Below are positions 28,325 through 38,252 of a stretch of DNA of 64,000 nt, piece after piece. The notes beneath the pieces were generated by a model. That model saw nothing but the letters and a program-made list of their open reading frames with translations. It was not told where the DNA came from and ran no database searches. A program made the position numbers and the translations under genes. Position 1 is the stretch's first letter; each line of letters begins with the position of its first letter. The DNA lies in contig JAUXWO010000092.1 in NCBI GenBank assembly GCA_030680175.1, positions 1 through 64,000 on the forward strand, in the 5' to 3' direction. Source of the stretch: Vicinamibacterales bacterium (GTDB lineage Bacteria > Acidobacteriota > Vicinamibacteria > Vicinamibacterales > UBA2999).

Positions 28325-28867
28325 TTACCGCTTCGCGACGCCGAGCCGCTCGAGGGTGGCCACGATGTCTGGGCCGGCGGTGGAGGCGCTGACCTTCGTA
28401 TCGACGTGGAGGATCTTGCCGTCGGAACCGATGTAGAAGGTCCAGCGGTTGGCCACGCCCCGGGCGCTCAGCACGCCGTACGCTTCCGCGACTTCCTTCG
28501 TCGGGTTGGCGAGGATCGGGTAGTCCGCCTCGTGCATGGCCGCGAACTTGGCGTTGTCCTCTTGCGTGTCGACGCTGATCATGAAATACGCCACGTTGTA
28601 CTGCCGAATCAGTTCGCCGCTCTCACGGAGCGACTTGCATTCGGCCGTTCAACCAGCGGTGAACGCCTTCGGGAACCACGCGAGCACCACGGCGCTCTTG
28701 CCGGCGTAGTCCTTCAGGTTGTAGGTCTTGCCATCGGAACCGGGCAAGTTGAACCCGGGGGCGGCCTGCCCCGCCTGCACCGCCGGCGCCGGCGCGGGTG
28801 CCTGCGCCTGCGCCCCGAGGCTGAAGAGCAGGGCAAAGCCCGCCGTGAAAATCGACCGTAGCGTCAT
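28325..28867 (-). CDS. Exported peroxiredoxin-like protein with in-frame UGA (candidate selenoprotein)
   Basis: Two open stretches in one frame (28867-28652 and 28648-28325) are joined by a single TGA at 28649-28651. Read through, they give a normal 180-residue redoxin: signal peptide 1-22 (LFSLGAQAQ), then QAAPGFNLPGSDGKTYNLKD, then AVVLAWFPKAFTAG, the UGA at residue 73, then TAECKSLRESGE and MISVDTQEDNAKF. The UGA falls exactly at the peroxidatic cysteine position of the FTxGC motif; a second cysteine (C77) follows in TAEC. No frameshift is needed and codon use is the same on both sides. A hairpin lies at the expected distance downstream. Reading: selenocysteine inserted at 73 to reduce peroxides in the periplasm. 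Alternative: a nonsense mutation of a Cys codon. selA/selB/selC/selD are not in this window. GGAGGA lies eight bases before the ATG. Confidence 0.75.
28616..28634 (-). promoter_or_regulatory. Candidate bacterial SECIS hairpin
   Basis: On the minus strand GTCGCTC-CGTGA-GAGCGGC forms a 7-bp stem (one U-G pair) with a five-base loop holding GU. Counting the U of UGA as 1, the loop covers 25-29. That is inside the window used by bacterial SelB, whose element lies within the coding sequence just after the UGA. It would direct selenocysteine insertion at residue 73 of the peroxiredoxin. No folding energy was computed. Confidence 0.5.
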
Positions 28868-28940
28868 GTCGCAAATCCTCCAGCGCGTATCGTAACAGAC
28901 AGTCGGGTCCGGACGGGTCCGGACCTAGTACTATCGAAAG

Positions 28941-31900
28941 GTGAGCGTAAGAGCGGCGAGAGTGGCGGCCATCTCGGCCGTGGGGATGGCGGTGGCCCTC
29001 GGCCTCCTCGTCCTCCTCGTCCAGTCCCCGATCGTGCGCCGGCCGCTCCTCGACTGGGTCACCGACTACCTCGCGCGCGAGGTGGACCTGCACCTCGCCG
29101 TCGAGGCGTTCGACTACAACCTGATCACCCGCCGCGTGACGACGCGCGGCGTCACCATCGCGGCGCTCGGACACGAGCAGACGCCCATCCTCACCGCCGA
29201 CATGATCGAGGCGCGGCTCCCGTGGTCCGCGTACCTCGGGCGCATCGTCCTGCACGAGGTCGTGCTCACCGGCGGCCGCGTGACGATCGCCACCGATGCC
29301 AATGGCGTCAGCAACCTGCCGCCCAGTGATCCCGATGCGCTGCCGCTCGTCGAGCCGCGCCGGCTCGAGATCCGCGGCCTGACCGTGCGCGATCTCGACA
29401 TCGCCTACCTGAATGCCGAGAACGACGTGGACGTGCACGTCACCGCGCTTCGCACCGACCTCGACGGACGCGTGGTGCAGGTCTTCGCGGGCGCGACCGG
29501 CGAGATCGCCGCGGAGCGCGTGTCGATCCGCGTGGGGACGCAGCAGACCGCGAGCGGGCCCCTGACCGGGCGCATGGCGTTCGACGGCAGCACAGTGTCG
29601 CTGCAGGAGGTCGCGATGGACTTCCCGGAGGCCGACGTCCGCATCGGCGGCCGCGTGCTGCGCGCGCTCGATTCCACCGAACTCGACCTGACGCTCGCGG
29701 GCCTCCTGCATCTGATTCCCGCCACCGTCTGGGTGCCCCTCCCGGTCCCCGTTGCGGGCAGCGCCACACTCGACGGCACCATCACCGGCCCGCTCTCGGA
29801 CGTGGTGGTCGAGACCGCGTTCGTCAGCGACGACCTCGCGCTCGGCGATGCGCAGGGCCTCCGCGCGGAAGGGCGGGCGCGGATCACGACGGAGACCGTG
29901 GTCGTCACGCCGCTCACGCTCACGGCTGGTGCCGGCCGCGCCGAGGCCCTCGTCACCGCGCCGTTCGGCGACGAGCGTGCGACGACGATGGAGGCGACGT
30001 GGCAGGGGGTGCCGTCGGCGATCGCGCTGGCGATCTTCGAGGCGGCGCCGCTGCCCGTGGCCACCGCCCTCGACGGCACGGCCACACTGGATCTGGGCAT
30101 CGGCGAGACGGCGCAGCTCACCGCCGACATCGACGTGCGGATGCGCGGCGTGGCGCGCGCCGGCGTGCTGCCGGTGGACGGGCACATCACGGCACGCATC
30201 GCCAATGGACGGTGGCGCGCGAACGTGACGCAGTCGATTGGCCGGGCCGTCCGCGCGACCGGCGAGGTGTCCGGGGCGTACGACGCGAACGACGCCACGC
30301 AGTCCACGCTGACGGGGCCGCTCGATATCCGCGTGACGGATCCCGCGGCGCTGTCGCGCGCGCTCGCAAACGCCGGCATCGAGGTGCCCGAGATCGTCGC
30401 GACGTCCACCGGCGAGGTCTCGGCCGCGCTGCAGCTCGGTGGCATCCTCGGGGCGCCGACCGCGATCGGCACCGTGGCGAGCGAGGGCCTCGTGCTGGCC
30501 GACGTCGGACCCGCGCGGCTCAACTTCTCCATCGAGGCGTCGTCCGAGCGGCTGCACGTCGAGGACCTGCGGCTCGTCGCCTCGGACACGACGATCGATG
30601 CCGGCGTGGACATGAACCTGGCCTCCGGCGCGATTGACGGCGCGTTCCGCTTCGAGGCGCCGGATCTGCAGCAGGCGCTCGCGATGCTGCCGGAGGCCTG
30701 GCGCCCGGCTGGCAGCGCTTCCGGCACGGGCGTCATCGGCGGCACGACCGACGCGCCGCGCGCGACCGCCACCATCACGACCGGCATGCTCGTCGTCGGC
30801 GTGCAGCACGTGGACACCGCGCGGGCCGAGCTGCGGGTGTCGGCGGATGCGGTGGAGTTCGACCGTGTCGAGGTCACGCAGGGCGACGGCCGCTTCGACG
30901 CGACGGGGCGCTACGCCTGGACGACCGGCGCGTACACGGCGCAACTCGAGGGACGCGGGCTGGTGATCGAGGACGCGCTCGGGTCCGAGGCGGGGACGCG
31001 CGCGCGCGTGGACCTGACGTTTACCGGCGAGGGCACGGTCGAGGCGCCGGTGGGCGAGGGACGCGCCACGATTGATTTCGAGGGCGGCACGGCCGGCGGC
31101 CTCGTCGGCCGCACCACCGTCGACGTGCGGCTCGATGGCGTCGTCGCGCGGGTCCACGCGCATGCGCCCGGGCTCGGCACGTACCTCGACGGCACGGTGT
31201 CGCCGCTCGCGCCCTACGACTACCGCGCCGTCGCCGTCGTCGATCGCCTCGACCTCGCGCCCCTGGCGCTCGTCGGCGGCGCGCACGAGGATGCGGTGAC
31301 GGGCACGCTCAGCCTGACGGTGCTGCTCACCGGGCAGGCGAGCGATGCCGCAAGCCTCGTGGCTGCCATCAACCTGCAGCAGCTCGACGCGCTGGCCAAC
31401 GGCGTGCCTGTGACGCTCGCCGCCCCCTCACGCCTGCGCTACGACGCCGCGGGTGTGAGCGCGGACGACGTGACGCTTCGCGTGGGCACGGGGGAGCTGC
31501 ACGCGTCGGGGCGCTTCTCTGAGGAACTGACGAGCGAGTGGCGCACGACGCTCGAGGCGAATGCGGCGGAGCTCGTGACGCTCGCGCAGGCGTTCGTGGC
31601 CGTCCCTGCGGAGATCGCCGCGCGCGGCGCCGTGCGCCTCGACTGGCGGTCCACCGGCGGCCTGCAGCAGACCGAGGGCACGCTCACGCTGGCGGACGGC
31701 GCGCTCATTTACGACGACCTCCCGCCCGTGGAGGACGTGGCCATCCGCGCGACGTTCGACGGCGAGACCGTCGACGTGCCCGAGATGACGGGCACGTGGC
31801 AGGGCGGCGGCATCGAGGGGTCCGCGCGGCTGCCGCGTGCGCTGTTCGAGGACGAGGCGCCGGCCGCGGAGGGACACGGCTTCCTGAAGATGCGCCTGCG

Positions 31901-34900
31901 CGGCCTCGCCCCCGGCGCGCTGGCGCCGTGGATGGACGCGGCCACGCTGGCGCGGATGACCGGCCGGCTCTCGGCCACGCTCGACGCGGTGATCGAGTCG
32001 CCGTCGGTCGAAGGGCTGCGCGGCACGCTCGTGCTCGACGAGGCGGCGATGACCGTGGACGGCGTGCCCATCGAGCAGCGGCAGCCGTCACGCCTCGCGC
32101 TCGAGGACGGGCAGCTGCGCATGACCGAGGTGCAGTGGATGGCCGGCGGCAGCCCGCTGCAGCTCACCGGCGCGGTGGATCTCACCACGGAGGACCCGGC
32201 GCTCGACCTCGCGCTGACGGGCCGCGCCGACCTGCGCATCGCGTCGGCGTTCGACCCGACGATCGCGACCGATGGCGGCGCCGACCTGGACATCCGCATC
32301 GGCGGCGTCGCGAGCGCGCCGCTGTTCGACGGGCGCATCACGCTCGATGGCGCGGAGCTCGCCATGCGCGACCCGCAACTCCTGCTCTCGAACGTGCACG
32401 GACGGATCGACCTGAACGGCGACCGCATCGTGTTCCAGGAGATCACGGGCGATGCCAACGGCGGGCGGCTCGTGATCGTCGGCGGCCTCACCCACAGCGC
32501 GTTCGAACTGACCGGCGGCACGGTGATTCTCCAGGTGCAGGGCGCGGCGCTCGAGTACCCGCAGGGCCTGCAGAGCGAAGCCGACGCGCTGCTGCAGTTC
32601 GTCCCCGGCCCCGGCGCGCCGCGCCTGTTCGGGGACGTGCGGATCCTCCGCAGCGGCTATCTGTCGCCGATCAGCCTGCCGGCGATCATCGCCGCCAACC
32701 GCGCGCAGGCGCGGCCGATCCGGGCCGAGCCCGCCTATCTCGACACCGTCCGCCTGAACATCGCGGTCGAGACCGTGACCGACATGGTCGTCGACAACAA
32801 CTACGGCCGCTTCGAAGCCGGCGCCCAGGTCCGCATCGTCGGGACCGTCGCGACGCCGGGGATGGTGGGCCGGGCCGAGCTTCGCGAGGGCGGGCAGATG
32901 TACCTCGCGGGCAACACCTTCCGCATCGAGCGCGGCAGCATCTCGTTCATCGGCCAGTCGACGATCGAGCCGGACTTCGACATCGAGGTGCGGACGCAGG
33001 CGTCGGGCCAGGATGTGACCGTCACGCTGAGCGGCACCCTCGACCGCCTCGAGACCGACGTGCGGTCATCGAACCCGGACGTGCCGGCCGACGAACTCGT
33101 GTCGCTGCTGCTCGGCGGCACGGGCGCCGGCTTCGGGGGCGCGGATGCGTTGCGCCTGTTCTCGGCGGAGCTGCTGGGGGCGACGGGCCGCGCGTTCGGG
33201 CTCGACAGCGTGCGCCTCGAACGCGACTTCGCCGGCGACGACCTGCGCGCCGACCCCGGATTGTTCGCGGACCAGGCCGACCCGTCGGCGCGGCTCACCC
33301 TGTCGAAGCGCCTGCGGCCGGACGTCGAGGTCATCCTGTCGCAGAACCTGCGCGAGTCGGGCCTGTCGGCGATCGTCAGCTACCGCCCGCGGCGGAACGT
33401 GGAACTGCGCGGGATCACGCGCGACAACCAGGACCGCGCCTACTCGGTGCGTCACGAGATCACCTTCGGCGGCGGCGCGCCGGCCGCGGCCCGGGCGCTC
33501 CCGGAGCCGCGCGTCTCGGCCGTGACGGTCACCGGCCCCGTTGGCGACGAGGGCGCGCTGGCGTCGCGCCTCCGGCTCGGCCCCGGGGACCGCTTCAACT
33601 TCCACACATGGCAGCGCGACATCGATACGCTGCGGACGCACTTCCATGCACAGGGGCGCTTCGAGGCGCGGGTGCGCGCCACGCGGCAGGAGGACGAGGC
33701 CGCCGGGACCGTCGCACTCACCTACCGCGTCGAGCCGGGGCCGGCCACCCGGATCGAGACGGCCGGCTACGAGGTGTCCAGCCGGCTGCGCCGCGATCTC
33801 GAGCGCGCGTGGACCCGGGCCGTCTTCGATCAGTTCCTGATCCAGGAACTCCAGCTCCAGGTGAGGCGCCACCTGATCGACCGCGGGTACTTTGGCGGCA
33901 CCGTGGGCGTCGAGGTCGACGTGACCGACGACGAGACCGCGAAGGTCGCGCGTCTTGTCATCAACCCGGGGACGAAGGTCTCCGGGCACGACCTCCGGTT
34001 CGAGGGACGACAGGGCGTGGACGAGGGGCTGTTGCGGGCGGCCATCGAGGGCGCCGGGCTCGAGACGGACGGGTGGGTGACGCCCGCGCGCCTGCGCCAG
34101 CCGGTCGAGGACGTCTACGCGCTCGAAGGCTATCTCGACGCCCGCATCGACGTGGGGGTCCCCGCCCTCGACGGGGACCGCGCGGTGCTCCCCATCACGA
34201 TCGTCGAGGGCCCGCGCTACCGCGTCGGCGGCGTCGCGTTCGAGGGCGTCGATGCCGCACGGCTCGACGACGTGCGGCGTGACGTCCGGCTCGACCCGGA
34301 GGATCCGTACACGGCCGACGTCATCGAACGCGCGCGGCGGCGGATCGAAGACCGCTACCTGCGCCGGGGGTTCAACGCCGTCCGGGTCGACCTGCGCCCG
34401 GTGCTCGACGAGCCGGCGGCGCGGGTCGCGGTCACGTTCCTCGTCGACGAGGGCCCGCAGCAGGTGCTGGCCGAGGTCACGACGTCCGGCGCCTCGCGCA
34501 CGCGCGAGGGCGTCGTCGAGCGCGCGCTGCGGCTGCGCGTGGGCGAGCCGGTGGACCTCAACGAGTGGGCGCTCGGCCGCAAGCGGTTGTACGACACCAA
34601 CGTCTTCCGGCAGGTGGACCTGCAGGTGCAGTCGCTCGGCGAACCGGTGGACGGCATCGAGCGGGTGCGCGCCGCCGTCACCGTGCAGGAATGGCCGGCG
34701 TGGCGGCTGCGCTACGGGTTGCAGGTGAACGACGAACGGTTCACCGACGAAGAGGAGTCGTTCCGCGCCATCGAGGAGGCCGGCGGCCGCACACAGACGG
34801 TGGGCCTCGTCGGCGACCTGCGGAGCCAGAACCTGTTCGGCCGTGCGATCGGGTCAGGCGTGAATGCCAGGCTCGAGCCCAGCCGCCAGTCGGCCAACAC

Positions 34901-35732
34901 GTACATCGCCCTGCCCGCGCTCTTCCGGATTCCGGTCACGACGAACCTGTTCGTGTTCGGCGACCGCCAGACGTACGACATCAGCGACCTGCTGACGTTC
35001 GTGAACGACCGGACGGGCGCCAGCCTCGAGCAGCGCTGGCGCCGGACGCGGACGACGCAGGTGTCGTGGAGCTACCGCTTCGAGCGCAGCCGCACGTACG
35101 ACCCCGATCCGGACCCGAATGACGAGTTCCCCCTTGACCTGATGTTCGACGTGGCCCGGCTCAGCCTGACGACGCTGATCGATCGCCGCGATGATCCGTT
35201 CAACGCGCGGCGCGGGTGGTTCACGTCGGCGTCGTTCGAGTACGCCGCCCCGGAGATCGGATCGGACCTGCGCCTGGCGAAGCTCTTCGCCCAGCAGAAG
35301 CTCTTCCGGCCGGTGGGGCCGTTCGTGCTGGCCGCCGCGTTTCAGGGAGGGGCCGCGTTTGCCGACGACCTGATTCCGTCGGAGCGCTTCCGCGCGGGCG
35401 GCGGCTACACGGTGCGCGGGTTCGAGGAGAACAGCCTCGGACCGCTCGATTTCCTCGGCCGGCCGCGCGGCGGCAATGCGCTGCTCATCCTGAACCAGGA
35501 AGTGCGCTTCCCCCTGTTCCGCTGGGCGCGGGCCGTCGCCTTCCTCGACATGGGCAACGTCTTCTCGAGCCGCGAGGAGCTGTCGTTCAACAACCTGAAG
35601 GTGGGCTACGGCGTCGGCCTGCGCCTCGACACGCCGTTCGCCCTCCTCCGGATCGACTACGGCATCCCGACGGACCGCCGCCCCGGCGATCCGCGCGGGC
35701 GGTGGTACTTCGGCATCGGCCAGGTCTTCTAG
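28941..35732 (+). CDS. TamB-TamA (Omp85) fusion protein
   Basis: One uninterrupted frame of 2263 residues. Residues 8-30 form a signal anchor (VGMAVALGLLVLLVQSP). Residues about 40-1310 are AsmA/TamB-like beta-rich repeats. About 1310-1515 is the TamB C-terminal DUF490 domain (GGQMYLAGNTFRIERGSISF, then LSKRLRPDVEVILSQNLRES and a last strand YSVRHEITFGG). It continues directly into about five POTRA domains (1520-1915; VSAVTVTGP, VGGVAFEGVDAARLDD). The Omp85 barrel follows (1920-2263; RAGGGYTVRGFEENSLGP with the VRGF-type motif, ending GIGQVF with a terminal phenylalanine). Known TamB is anchored in the inner membrane and docks on TamA POTRA domains, so a covalent link is topologically sensible. 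Likely role: outer-membrane protein insertion or phospholipid transport. Start GTG at 28941 has a weak ribosome site. Its stop overlaps that of the convergent TPR gene. Confidence 0.88.
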   Translation: MSVRAARVAAISAVGMAVALGLLVLLVQSPIVRRPLLDWVTDYLAREVDLHLAVEAFDYNLITRRVTTRGVTIAALGHEQTPILTADMIEARLPWSAYLGRIVLHEVVLTGGRVTIATDANGVSNLPPSDPDALPLVEPRRLEIRGLTVRDLDIAYLNAENDVDVHVTALRTDLDGRVVQVFAGATGEIAAERVSIRVGTQQTASGPLTGRMAFDGSTVSLQEVAMDFPEADVRIGGRVLRALDSTELDLTLAGLLHLIPATVWVPLPVPVAGSATLDGTITGPLSDVVVETAFVSDDLALGDAQGLRAEGRARITTETVVVTPLTLTAGAGRAEALVTAPFGDERATTMEATWQGVPSAIALAIFEAAPLPVATALDGTATLDLGIGETAQLTADIDVRMRGVARAGVLPVDGHITARIANGRWRANVTQSIGRAVRATGEVSGAYDANDATQSTLTGPLDIRVTDPAALSRALANAGIEVPEIVATSTGEVSAALQLGGILGAPTAIGTVASEGLVLADVGPARLNFSIEASSERLHVEDLRLVASDTTIDAGVDMNLASGAIDGAFRFEAPDLQQALAMLPEAWRPAGSASGTGVIGGTTDAPRATATITTGMLVVGVQHVDTARAELRVSADAVEFDRVEVTQGDGRFDATGRYAWTTGAYTAQLEGRGLVIEDALGSEAGTRARVDLTFTGEGTVEAPVGEGRATIDFEGGTAGGLVGRTTVDVRLDGVVARVHAHAPGLGTYLDGTVSPLAPYDYRAVAVVDRLDLAPLALVGGAHEDAVTGTLSLTVLLTGQASDAASLVAAINLQQLDALANGVPVTLAAPSRLRYDAAGVSADDVTLRVGTGELHASGRFSEELTSEWRTTLEANAAELVTLAQAFVAVPAEIAARGAVRLDWRSTGGLQQTEGTLTLADGALIYDDLPPVEDVAIRATFDGETVDVPEMTGTWQGGGIEGSARLPRALFEDEAPAAEGHGFLKMRLRGLAPGALAPWMDAATLARMTGRLSATLDAVIESPSVEGLRGTLVLDEAAMTVDGVPIEQRQPSRLALEDGQLRMTEVQWMAGGSPLQLTGAVDLTTEDPALDLALTGRADLRIASAFDPTIATDGGADLDIRIGGVASAPLFDGRITLDGAELAMRDPQLLLSNVHGRIDLNGDRIVFQEITGDANGGRLVIVGGLTHSAFELTGGTVILQVQGAALEYPQGLQSEADALLQFVPGPGAPRLFGDVRILRSGYLSPISLPAIIAANRAQARPIRAEPAYLDTVRLNIAVETVTDMVVDNNYGRFEAGAQVRIVGTVATPGMVGRAELREGGQMYLAGNTFRIERGSISFIGQSTIEPDFDIEVRTQASGQDVTVTLSGTLDRLETDVRSSNPDVPADELVSLLLGGTGAGFGGADALRLFSAELLGATGRAFGLDSVRLERDFAGDDLRADPGLFADQADPSARLTLSKRLRPDVEVILSQNLRESGLSAIVSYRPRRNVELRGITRDNQDRAYSVRHEITFGGGAPAAARALPEPRVSAVTVTGPVGDEGALASRLRLGPGDRFNFHTWQRDIDTLRTHFHAQGRFEARVRATRQEDEAAGTVALTYRVEPGPATRIETAGYEVSSRLRRDLERAWTRAVFDQFLIQELQLQVRRHLIDRGYFGGTVGVEVDVTDDETAKVARLVINPGTKVSGHDLRFEGRQGVDEGLLRAAIEGAGLETDGWVTPARLRQPVEDVYALEGYLDARIDVGVPALDGDRAVLPITIVEGPRYRVGGVAFEGVDAARLDDVRRDVRLDPEDPYTADVIERARRRIEDRYLRRGFNAVRVDLRPVLDEPAARVAVTFLVDEGPQQVLAEVTTSGASRTREGVVERALRLRVGEPVDLNEWALGRKRLYDTNVFRQVDLQVQSLGEPVDGIERVRAAVTVQEWPAWRLRYGLQVNDERFTDEEESFRAIEEAGGRTQTVGLVGDLRSQNLFGRAIGSGVNARLEPSRQSANTYIALPALFRIPVTTNLFVFGDRQTYDISDLLTFVNDRTGASLEQRWRRTRTTQVSWSYRFERSRTYDPDPDPNDEFPLDLMFDVARLSLTTLIDRRDDPFNARRGWFTSASFEYAAPEIGSDLRLAKLFAQQKLFRPVGPFVLAAAFQGGAAFADDLIPSERFRAGGGYTVRGFEENSLGPLDFLGRPRGGNALLILNQEVRFPLFRWARAVAFLDMGNVFSSREELSFNNLKVGYGVGLRLDTPFALLRIDYGIPTDRRPGDPRGRWYFGIGQVF

Positions 35733-36364
35733 CCGCGCACGCTCCTGAGCACCACCAGCACCTGCGTGCGTTCGGGCGCGTTCGGGGCCAGTTGCACGAA
35801 CTGCTCGAAGTGGGTCGCCATGCGGTTGATGTTCTTCACCCGCTGGAACGAGAGCCCCGCGTAGTAGTGCGCGTAGGCGAACGACGGCATCAGCTCCGCG
35901 GCGCGCGCGAAGGCCTGTCCGGCCGCCTCATGGTTGTTGCGGCGCGCGTGCACCATCCCGAGCTGGTAGTGCGCGAAGCCCAGGCCCCCCTCGAGACCGA
36001 TGGCCTCGCCGGCGGCCCCCTGCGCCTGGTCGAGATCGCCGCGTTCGAGCGCGGCGCCCGCGCGGCCGAGCGCCGCCCACGCCGGGTTCGGGCTCGACGC
36101 CAGCCGCTCGTACTCCTGCACGACGCGGTCGCCCTGGCCGAGCCGGCGCGCGGCCTGCGCGGCCATGAAGGCCGACTCCAGCGACTCCCGGCCGGCGCCG
36201 CGCTCCGCGTCCACGCGCGCCAGCACGGCGTCGTATTGCCCGGCCTCGTAGAGCGCCTGCGGCGAGGCGTCCTGTGCCGCAGCCGCGGTCGAGATGGCGA
36301 GCAGGGCCACGAGGGCGGAGCCGAGTGCACTCCGCAGATGACGGTTTCGCTGTGTTCTGATCAT
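35729..36364 (-). CDS. Exported TPR protein
   Basis: The 211-residue protein has a signal peptide (residues about 12-31, LGSALVALLAISTAAAAQ) and then roughly five tetratricopeptide units, for example GLGFAHYQLGMVHARRNNHEAAGQAFARAAELMP and SFAYAHYYAGLSFQRVKNINRMATHFEQFVQLAPNAP in consecutive 34-residue steps. It should act as a periplasmic scaffold. Its stop codon (35729-35731) and the TamBA stop (35730-35732) share bases on opposite strands, so the two genes end on each other without a terminator between. A link to TamBA is possible from position only. Confidence 0.82.
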   Translation of the reverse strand: MIRTQRNRHLRSALGSALVALLAISTAAAAQDASPQALYEAGQYDAVLARVDAERGAGRESLESAFMAAQAARRLGQGDRVVQEYERLASSPNPAWAALGRAGAALERGDLDQAQGAAGEAIGLEGGLGFAHYQLGMVHARRNNHEAAGQAFARAAELMPSFAYAHYYAGLSFQRVKNINRMATHFEQFVQLAPNAPERTQVLVVLRSVRG

Positions 36365-36698: not shown

Positions 36699-38252
36699 GT
36701 GACTGCAATGTCAGAAACCAGACTCAAGCTGGCCGTCTTCATCGACTTCGACAACGTCGAGATCGGCGTGAAGACCACCCTCGGCCTCAACTTCGACATC
36801 GGCGCGGTGCTCGAAGCCGTCAAGGAACGCGGCGAGATCGTCACGAAGGTCGCCTATGGCGACTGGAAGCGCGGCGACTACGGCCGTGCGATGTCCAACC
36901 ATGCCGTGCGCCTCGTGCAGCGCGTCATGACGCCCGGCGGCGACAAGAACGGCGCCGACATCAACCTCGCGCTCGACGCGCTCGAGATGGCCTTCACCCA
37001 CAGCCACATCAACGCCTTCGTCATCGTCGGCGGCGACAGCGACTTCATCACGCTCGTCGAGAAGCTGAAGCAGTACGACCGCAAGGTGTTCGTCGTCGGC
37101 GGCCGCGCGTTCACCAGCCAGGTGATGCAGAAGAACTTCACCGAGTTCATCGCCTACGAGAACATCGCCGGCACGAGGGGCGGCAGCCGGAGCACCGAGC
37201 GCGGCGGCAAGTCGGTCGGGCAGACCATGAAGCTCGATCAGGTGGTGCCGCTCGTCAAGCGCGCCCTGAAGGTGCTGGTGGACCGCGAGGTCACGCCGCA
37301 GCTCGGCCTGCTCAAGAGCACGCTGCTGCAGCTCGACTCGTCGTTCTCCGAGCGCGACTACGGCATCAGCACGTTCCGCGATTTCGCCGACAAGCTGGCC
37401 GAGCGCGGCGTCGTCACGCTGAAGCACACCGGGCGGAGCACGCTCGTCGAACTCGCCGAGGGCCAGTCCTCGTCGCCCGAGCCGTCCGAGGCGCCGGGGG
37501 CCGACACGGCCGAAGGCGTCGAGCCGCGCGCGGTGGAGCGCACGGACTCGTCCGTCGAGGCGCCCCGCCAGGGCACGCTCGACGTGCCGGCGCGCCAGGC
37601 GCCTGCCGAAGCGCCGGCCGCCCGTCCGCAGGCGCCGCCGGCTGATCCGGCCGCGATGGCCGAGGGCGTGGCCCTCGTGCGCCGTGCCGTCGAGGACCCG
37701 CCGCAGCCGCCGCGCTGGCCGATGTACCTCCGCCAGATGAAGCAGCTGCTGCGGTCGGTCGACGCGTCGTTCGACGAGCGGAAGTACGGATCGATCGTCG
37801 ACCTGATGCGCGCCAGCCAGAAGGAAGGCATCGTGCGGCTCGAGCGCGACCGGCAGGGCGGCCTGCGCGTGTTCTCGGAGATCGCCGCCTCCACCCAGGC
37901 GTCCGTGCCCGCGCCGGTCTCCACGCCGACCGGCCAGCCCTATCGCCCGAAGACGGTGCCGCTCGGGTGGGTGCTGTCGGGTGACGATGCCGACGATGAG
38001 GATGAGACGGGGGAAGGCCCGGCCAGCGAGCCCGAGGTGGTGACGCGCGAGGAGGCGATGCCGGCGATCGAGGCGGTGCCCGAGGACGACGCGGACGCGC
38101 CGGCCGTGGCGAAGAAGGCGGCGCGCGCGCCGCGTGCGCGCAAGACGGCGGCGGCCAAGCCGGCGGCGGCGAAGTCCGCGGCCGACAAGCCGAAGCGCGC
38201 CGCCAAGGCGCCTGCGGCCAAGAAGGCGCCGAAGGCGAAGAAGACGACGTAG
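36699..38252 (+). CDS. NYN-domain ribonuclease-like protein with two LOTUS domains
   Basis: The 517-residue protein begins with a NYN/LabA PIN-like domain (about 8-155). Acidic residues expected at the metal site are present: FIDFDNV (D16, D18), GADINLALDAL and VGGDSDF near 111. Two OST-HTH/LOTUS domains follow, about 181-250 (LLKSTLLQLDSSFSERDYG) and about 321-390 (QMKQLLRSVDASFDERKYG). LOTUS domains bind RNA, including G-rich RNA, in characterised cases. The last 45 residues are a Lys/Ala-rich histone-H1-like tail. The protein is predicted to bind and possibly cut RNA in the cytoplasm. GTG at 36699 is chosen for spacing from GAGAG; ATG at 36708 is the alternative. Convergent with the next gene (5-bp gap). 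Confidence 0.85.
   Translation: MTAMSETRLKLAVFIDFDNVEIGVKTTLGLNFDIGAVLEAVKERGEIVTKVAYGDWKRGDYGRAMSNHAVRLVQRVMTPGGDKNGADINLALDALEMAFTHSHINAFVIVGGDSDFITLVEKLKQYDRKVFVVGGRAFTSQVMQKNFTEFIAYENIAGTRGGSRSTERGGKSVGQTMKLDQVVPLVKRALKVLVDREVTPQLGLLKSTLLQLDSSFSERDYGISTFRDFADKLAERGVVTLKHTGRSTLVELAEGQSSSPEPSEAPGADTAEGVEPRAVERTDSSVEAPRQGTLDVPARQAPAEAPAARPQAPPADPAAMAEGVALVRRAVEDPPQPPRWPMYLRQMKQLLRSVDASFDERKYGSIVDLMRASQKEGIVRLERDRQGGLRVFSEIAASTQASVPAPVSTPTGQPYRPKTVPLGWVLSGDDADDEDETGEGPASEPEVVTREEAMPAIEAVPEDDADAPAVAKKAARAPRARKTAAAKPAAAKSAADKPKRAAKAPAAKKAPKAKKTT

Follow-up and report, generated by a model that had tools for sequence, protein, structure and literature searches.

The fused tamB-omp85 gene and its product

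The window (the whole stretch of DNA analysed, 64,000 nt) carries a long gene whose product begins as a TamB protein and ends in an Omp85 barrel. The parts of this chain, and the gene that converges on it, are as follows.

28941–35732, + strand: fused tamB-omp85 gene, 2263 aa, GTG start, stop codon at 35730–35732, frame open throughout
28947–29021, + strand: predicted N-terminal membrane-type helix, residues 3–27, likely an inner-membrane signal anchor (AlphaFold2)
29085–33074, + strand: TamB repeating β-groove, residues about 49–1378 (AlphaFold2 models)
32145–33428, + strand: TamB/DUF490 domain PF04357, residues 1069–1496 (Pfam, E 3.6e-26)
33291–33467, + strand: TamB C-terminal β-strands, residues 1451–1509, ending at Phe (AlphaFold2)
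33468–33509, + strand: linker, residues 1510–1523 (alignment; 12–19 residues in 33 proteins)
33510–33734, + strand: POTRA 1, residues 1524–1598 (AlphaFold2 model)
33744–33965, + strand: POTRA 2, residues 1602–1675 (AlphaFold2 model)
33984–34205, + strand: POTRA 3, residues 1682–1755 (AlphaFold2 model)
34221–34448, + strand: POTRA 4, residues 1761–1836 (Pfam and AlphaFold2 model)
34458–34691, + strand: POTRA 5, residues 1840–1917 (AlphaFold2 model)
34701–35729, + strand: 16-strand Omp85 barrel with a C-terminal Phe at the OMP β-signal position (Pfam, AlphaFold2, and structure comparison)
35729–36364, − strand: convergent TPR protein with a signal peptide-like N-terminus (TPR_2, E 2e-5, below the cut-off)

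A Pfam search along the chain placed TamB (PF04357), POTRA (PF07244), and Omp85 (PF01103) matches above their cut-offs. The PF04357 match, which lies towards the C-terminal end of the TamB portion, scored 92.8 bits against a cut-off of 22.4, and PF01103 covered residues 1964–2263 (E 1.3e-45; 156.8 bits against 24). The Pfam domains and the AlphaFold2 models agreed on one open frame from the N-terminal helix to the barrel, in which a complete TamB is joined in frame to a complete Omp85 protein with five POTRA domains, as the sequence-only reading had proposed.

Family alignments were used to build two AlphaFold2 models that together span the whole chain. The model of the N half (residues 2–1180; 29 rows; pLDDT 87.1, pTM 0.49) begins with the N-terminal helix and one more helix, which are followed by continuous β-strands interrupted by short helices. 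The model of the C half (residues 1150–2263; 33 rows; pLDDT 80.5, pTM 0.55) shows, in order, the end of the groove, helices, the terminal strands of TamB, the linker, five β-α-α-β-β units, and the 16 strands of the barrel. Because pTM was low in both models, they do not fix the placing of the parts relative to one another. At the modelled junction, the terminal strands of TamB are followed by the short linker and then by POTRA 1; that is, the C-terminal strand of TamB is not the end of the protein in the fusion. Across both models, the TamB half has 74 strands of at least 6 residues, which at 4.8 Å per strand gives a groove of at most about 355 Å, an upper bound that ignores curvature. The best PDB matches of the N-half model were the lipid carriers ApoB100, the LPD-3 complex, and LptD, all of them weak (TM-score 0.09–0.17). 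Hydrophobicity alternated along the TamB strands (2.91 versus 1.59 when shuffled) and also along the POTRA strands (2.99 versus 1.87), and this test therefore did not separate the two.

The one-chain frame is genuine

An alignment was made of 33 fused proteins, which come from 29 genomes, that of the window among them; one protein, L066, is truncated at a contig end. In all 33, the last strand of TamB leads through a linker of 12–19 residues into POTRA 1, and a hydrophobic stretch lies at the N-terminus. The barrel ends in Phe in 32, the remaining one being the protein cut by the contig end, and a VRG[FYW] loop motif, VRGF in the window protein, was found in 20. In a further 27 fused loci, which represent other families, orders, and classes, TamB-C, POTRA, and barrel lay within a single frame in every case. 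The junction thus recurs in independent assemblies, and none of the fused-clade relatives examined is split into two genes at this spot; neither of the two refuting conditions named in the sequence-only reading was borne out.

Across 12 independent pairs of relatives, 110 of the 251 substitutions in the linker (0.44) fell at the third codon position, compared with shares of 0.62 just upstream and 0.55 just downstream. The third-position bias persists through the linker, which indicates that the linker is translated. Of the stretches compared, none varied more than the linker, in which 104 of 151 changed codons were non-synonymous; Gly, Pro, Ser, and Arg are abundant in it. A missed stop codon or frameshift at 33450–33550 is ruled out by the conservation of the junction in frame together with this bias. 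These results confirm that the frame at 28941–35732 encodes one protein and is not an assembly error.

The length of the frame alone would be weak evidence, because long antisense frames occur at this G+C content; opposite the fusion at locus L055 (genome G011), for example, there is an antisense open frame of 3190 codons. A blastp search with the whole window protein matched only the first part of the fused relatives L060, L064, and L065, each of which was complete across the junction by MAFFT, tblastn, and HMM profile searches.

Distribution of the fusion within Acidobacteriota

To count fused genes we used a profile of the junction (18 rows, residues 1361–1720); since scoring was limited to the top few candidates of each genome, all counts are lower bounds. 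A fused frame was present in at least 38 of the 43 genomes of the window's family and was not found in G015, G029, G031, G032, and G041, which are 77–97% complete. Junction-spanning matches occurred in at least 64 of the 162 genomes of the order, across 13 of its 15 families; among the best few candidates per genome, the profile found none in the 12 genomes of family f2 or the single genome of f5. The corresponding count for the class was at least 80 of 193 genomes. In the phylum sample, at least 96 of 396 genomes had a match with E ≤ 1e-25. Four genomes among them, G314, G479, G481, and G488, matched the POTRA part only, which leaves at least 92 of 396 with the fusion. The same junction was found in the single-contig genomes G247 and G491. 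The TamB-Omp85 fusion is therefore conserved across much of the phylum Acidobacteriota.

Some genomes carry two or more fused copies, namely G005, G011, G014, and G039 within the window's family, and G160 and G370 outside it; the fused frames of G011 are 2452 and 2323 aa long. A second copy in G028 is split into two frames within the POTRA region. In G491, a 934-aa Omp85 frame (C1:1619191–1620054), whose match starts within the TamB C-terminal domain, is possibly a broken second fusion or a sequencing frameshift.

Separate TamB and Omp85 proteins in the same genomes

The search for a separate tamB elsewhere in the window's own genome, which the earlier reading had called for, found an ordinary tamB-omp85 pair on contig C98, consisting of a 1369-aa TamB followed by an Omp85 with five PF07244 POTRAs and further POTRA-type matches. 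The genome also encodes a separate 897-aa Omp85, which is BamA-like and is taken as BamA. PF04357 was searched in 24 genomes that carry the fusion and belong to other families, orders, and classes; in 10 of them, all TamB matches lay in fused frames. Nine had one match each (G195, G210, G247, G271, G302, G318, G414, G428, and G491), and G370 had two. The absence of a further TamB is weaker for G414 (80% complete) and G491 (74%), whereas G247 is a single contig and 99% complete. All nine single-match genomes encode a separate Omp85 of BamA size. The other 14 genomes have a separate TamB alongside the fusion (a 1855-codon frame in G212 was counted as separate), so in these the fusion is a distinct paralogue.

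Split pairs and the origin of the fusion

Of 15 split tamB-omp85 pairs fetched, 14 were used; L167 was left out, its TamB half having no TamB-C match. In all 14, tamB lies directly upstream of omp85, and in 12 the tamB stop codon shares its final base with the ATG of omp85, which is read in another frame. With an overlap of 1 nt, a small change would be enough for fusion. The separate TamB proteins end in Phe immediately before the stop in 13 of 14 (the remaining one ends in FR), and 26 of the 33 fused chains have Phe at the equivalent position, which is followed by Gly in all 33. This conservation of the TamB end, with Gly after it, indicates that the whole of TamB was retained in the fusion. 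The separate Omp85 proteins begin with a signal peptide-like stretch and the fused ones show none before POTRA 1; the signal peptide and the N-terminal POTRA region of the partner were lost in the fusion.

All phylogenetic trees were quick trees with SH-aLRT support. From the Omp85 tree, L073, a single-POTRA protein, was dropped; the second of the two frames into which the G028 copy is broken, L077_3595, entered it labelled as fused. Fused and separate forms grouped apart in both the TamB and the Omp85 trees. Distances of the two halves were strongly correlated (Mantel r 0.962; none of 2000 permutations as high), which shows that the two halves evolve together. Within the fused set there was a second group (L136 and L140–L146, from genomes of families f22, f35, f42, f59, f67, and f84), with longer and more variable linkers; all eight members stayed together in the Omp85 tree and seven in the TamB tree, and all eight genomes belong to the ten with only fused TamBs. 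In the Omp85 tree, the fused set formed one side of a branch with a support of only 32, and in the TamB tree it needed two changes. A TamB tree with a single fused clade was not rejected (p-AU 0.693) and had the higher likelihood. The fusion may have arisen once or twice.

The Omp85 half is of the BamA type

The name TamA, given to the Omp85 half in the sequence-only reading, did not survive. The half scored 84.6 bits on the TamA model NF047950 (cut-off 625) and 235.6 bits on the BamA model TIGR03303, which is higher, albeit under the cut-off of 297.15; on TamL (NF052279), a lipoprotein TamA-like family, it reached 80.2 bits against a required 400. In structure comparisons, residues 374–1112 of the model aligned with the full BamA (residues 24–808), whereas TamA aligned only from model residue 532, that is, from the third POTRA. 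These comparisons also brought up a TOC-TIC chain, 7xzi. The top Foldseek match was BamA (9hg7_A, 3.2e-42). The Omp85 half is therefore a BamA-type protein with five POTRAs and not TamA, which has three.

Neighbouring genes

The gene of the TPR protein abuts the stop codon of the fusion, and a TPR gene is the neighbour in 28 of 33 fused loci, at a median distance of 64 nt; its product is a possible, putative partner of the POTRAs. A protein with an NYN domain and an OST-HTH/LOTUS domain (36699–38252, + strand) is likewise conserved next to the fusion, in 16 of 33 loci. Directly before the GTG start, a palindromic repeated motif, GGGTCCGGACGGGTCCGGACC, lies at 28905–28925 and is possibly an operator. 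Divergent from the fusion, at 28325–28867 (− strand), is a gene for a secreted peroxiredoxin-like protein, whose AhpC-TSA match (E 2.2e-29) reads through an in-frame TGA at 28649–28651. The context of this codon, ...WFPKAFT[AG]G-TGA-TAECKS..., was found in all eight loci inspected, and the window's own genome has a tRNA-Sec match above the cut-off (64.8 bits). Judging from sequence, the gene likely encodes a selenoprotein.

Proposed function and alternatives

From the weak matches of the N half to lipid carriers and from what is known of the E. coli TAM, we infer that the chain acts as a bridge for lipids and is held at each end; the gene probably encodes a TAM in one chain, fixed to both membranes. 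E. coli TamB binds phospholipid and shows lipid-like density in its groove (PMC12800296), and its function requires TamA (PMC8593681). In the fusion, Sec would insert the N-terminal helix, which would remain as the inner-membrane anchor, the TamB groove would span the periplasm, and BAM would fold the C-terminal barrel into the outer membrane via the terminal β-signal. The result would be a likely covalent bridge from inner to outer membrane, with a permanent 1:1 stoichiometry, along whose hydrophobic groove phospholipids would travel to the outer membrane; POTRAs 1–5 would keep the groove end at the membrane, and the barrel might loosen the bilayer or aid the insertion of some barrel proteins. 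The covalent tether of 12–19 residues, roughly 45–70 Å if fully extended, would stand in for the TamB-POTRA docking of an ordinary TAM. In E. coli, the last strand of TamB pairs with strand 1 of TamA to form a hybrid barrel (PMC12800296). Such pairing of the TamB end with its own barrel, in cis and across five POTRAs, may be strained by a tether of this length, and we predict that the TamB end docks on POTRA 1 or pairs in trans.

The chain could instead be mainly a machine for protein assembly, in which the groove shields the β-strands of certain OMPs and passes them to the barrel, with lipid transfer secondary. POTRA-bearing Omp85 proteins are barrel insertases, and the modelled barrel and its five POTRAs are intact and BamA-like throughout. 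Furthermore, TamAB inserts Ag43; in E. coli, however, overproduction of BAM restores this insertion and not the lipid role (PMC12800296). Since, in addition, no more than 20 of the 33 fused barrels carry the VRG[FYW] motif and the conserved neighbours include no obvious client genes, we regard this alternative as unlikely, albeit the strongest.

Still less probable is a precursor that is cut at its N-terminus or in its linker, leaving TamB and Omp85 as an ordinary complex. The variability of the linker and its Gly/Pro/Ser/Arg-rich composition would suit cleavage, but its length is kept at 12–19 residues throughout the close set of 33, no common cleavage motif was seen in these linkers, and the fused chains have no signal peptide-like stretch before POTRA 1, unlike separate Omp85s. 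At the N-terminus, 16 of 33 fused proteins, that of the window not among them, and 11 of 12 controls have a loosely defined [AVS]xA site close to where the hydrophobic stretch ends; AxA sites in or around the stretch, present in 22 of 33 fused proteins, did not decide on cleavage.

That the fusion is an idle by-product of adjacent gene order, working exactly as a two-protein TAM, would fit the 1-nt overlap of 12 of the 14 split pairs; it is very improbable given that 14 of the 24 genomes searched have a separate TamB besides the fusion and that the split partner has an extra N-terminal POTRA region which is missing from the fused Omp85. Finally, although the named relatives are metagenome-assembled and the second G028 copy is broken (in the POTRA region, not at the junction), an artefact merging two genes is refuted by the recurrence of this junction in at least 64 of the order's 162 genomes and at least 92 of the 396 phylum genomes, single-contig G247 and G491 included, by the third-position bias through the linker, and by the separate grouping of split pairs in both trees.

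On balance, we favour a permanently closed lipid bridge made of one chain that sits in both membranes, that serves as the sole TamB in some lineages, and that perhaps arose by more than one fusion. This suggests that contact between TamB and Omp85 is permanent rather than transient in Acidobacteriota. Because the fusion fixes partner, stoichiometry, and junction, it makes models of the TAM directly testable, and it bears on the route of phospholipids to the outer membrane and on whether TamB needs a stable hold at an Omp85 barrel. It also poses a new problem, namely how BAM inserts a barrel whose far end is anchored in the inner membrane about 1,500 residues away.

Comparison with known systems

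The E. coli TAM likewise combines a TamB, with an N-terminal anchor, a β-groove, and a DUF490 end, with an Omp85 barrel partner encoded by an adjacent gene. It consists, however, of two proteins encoded in the order tamA-tamB, with three POTRAs in TamA, whereas the fusion is one chain with TamB first and five POTRAs. In chloroplasts, TIC236 forms a TamB-type bridge on the Omp85 protein TOC75 and serves protein import; the bridge is shared with the fusion, but TIC236 and TOC75 are separate chains.

An acidobacterial TamB with a second, BamA-like Omp85 was described by Heinz et al. 2015 (PMC4494059), a paper from which the words "fusion" and "fused" are absent. It corresponds to the split pair of the same genomes (contig C98 in the window's own), that is, to two genes, and was given in the order BamA-TamB, whereas tamB came first in all 14 of our pairs. 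Ten Omp85/TpsB architectures were distinguished by Heinz and Lithgow 2014 (PMC4104836), which resemble the fusion in having an Omp85 barrel with extra N-terminal domains; in the text of that paper that was available, none bears TamB, and "fused" and "DUF490" do not occur. No published TamB-Omp85 fusion was found in the freely accessible journal literature covered, nor was one described in the available parts of the literature on DUF490/POTRA architecture and TIC236/TOC75. The hybrid BAM-TAM of Borrelia is similar in that TamB works with a five-POTRA BamA; in contrast to the fusion, the two are separate proteins, and in the predicted complex the end of TamB completes the barrel of BamA (PMC13382580, PMC11361582).
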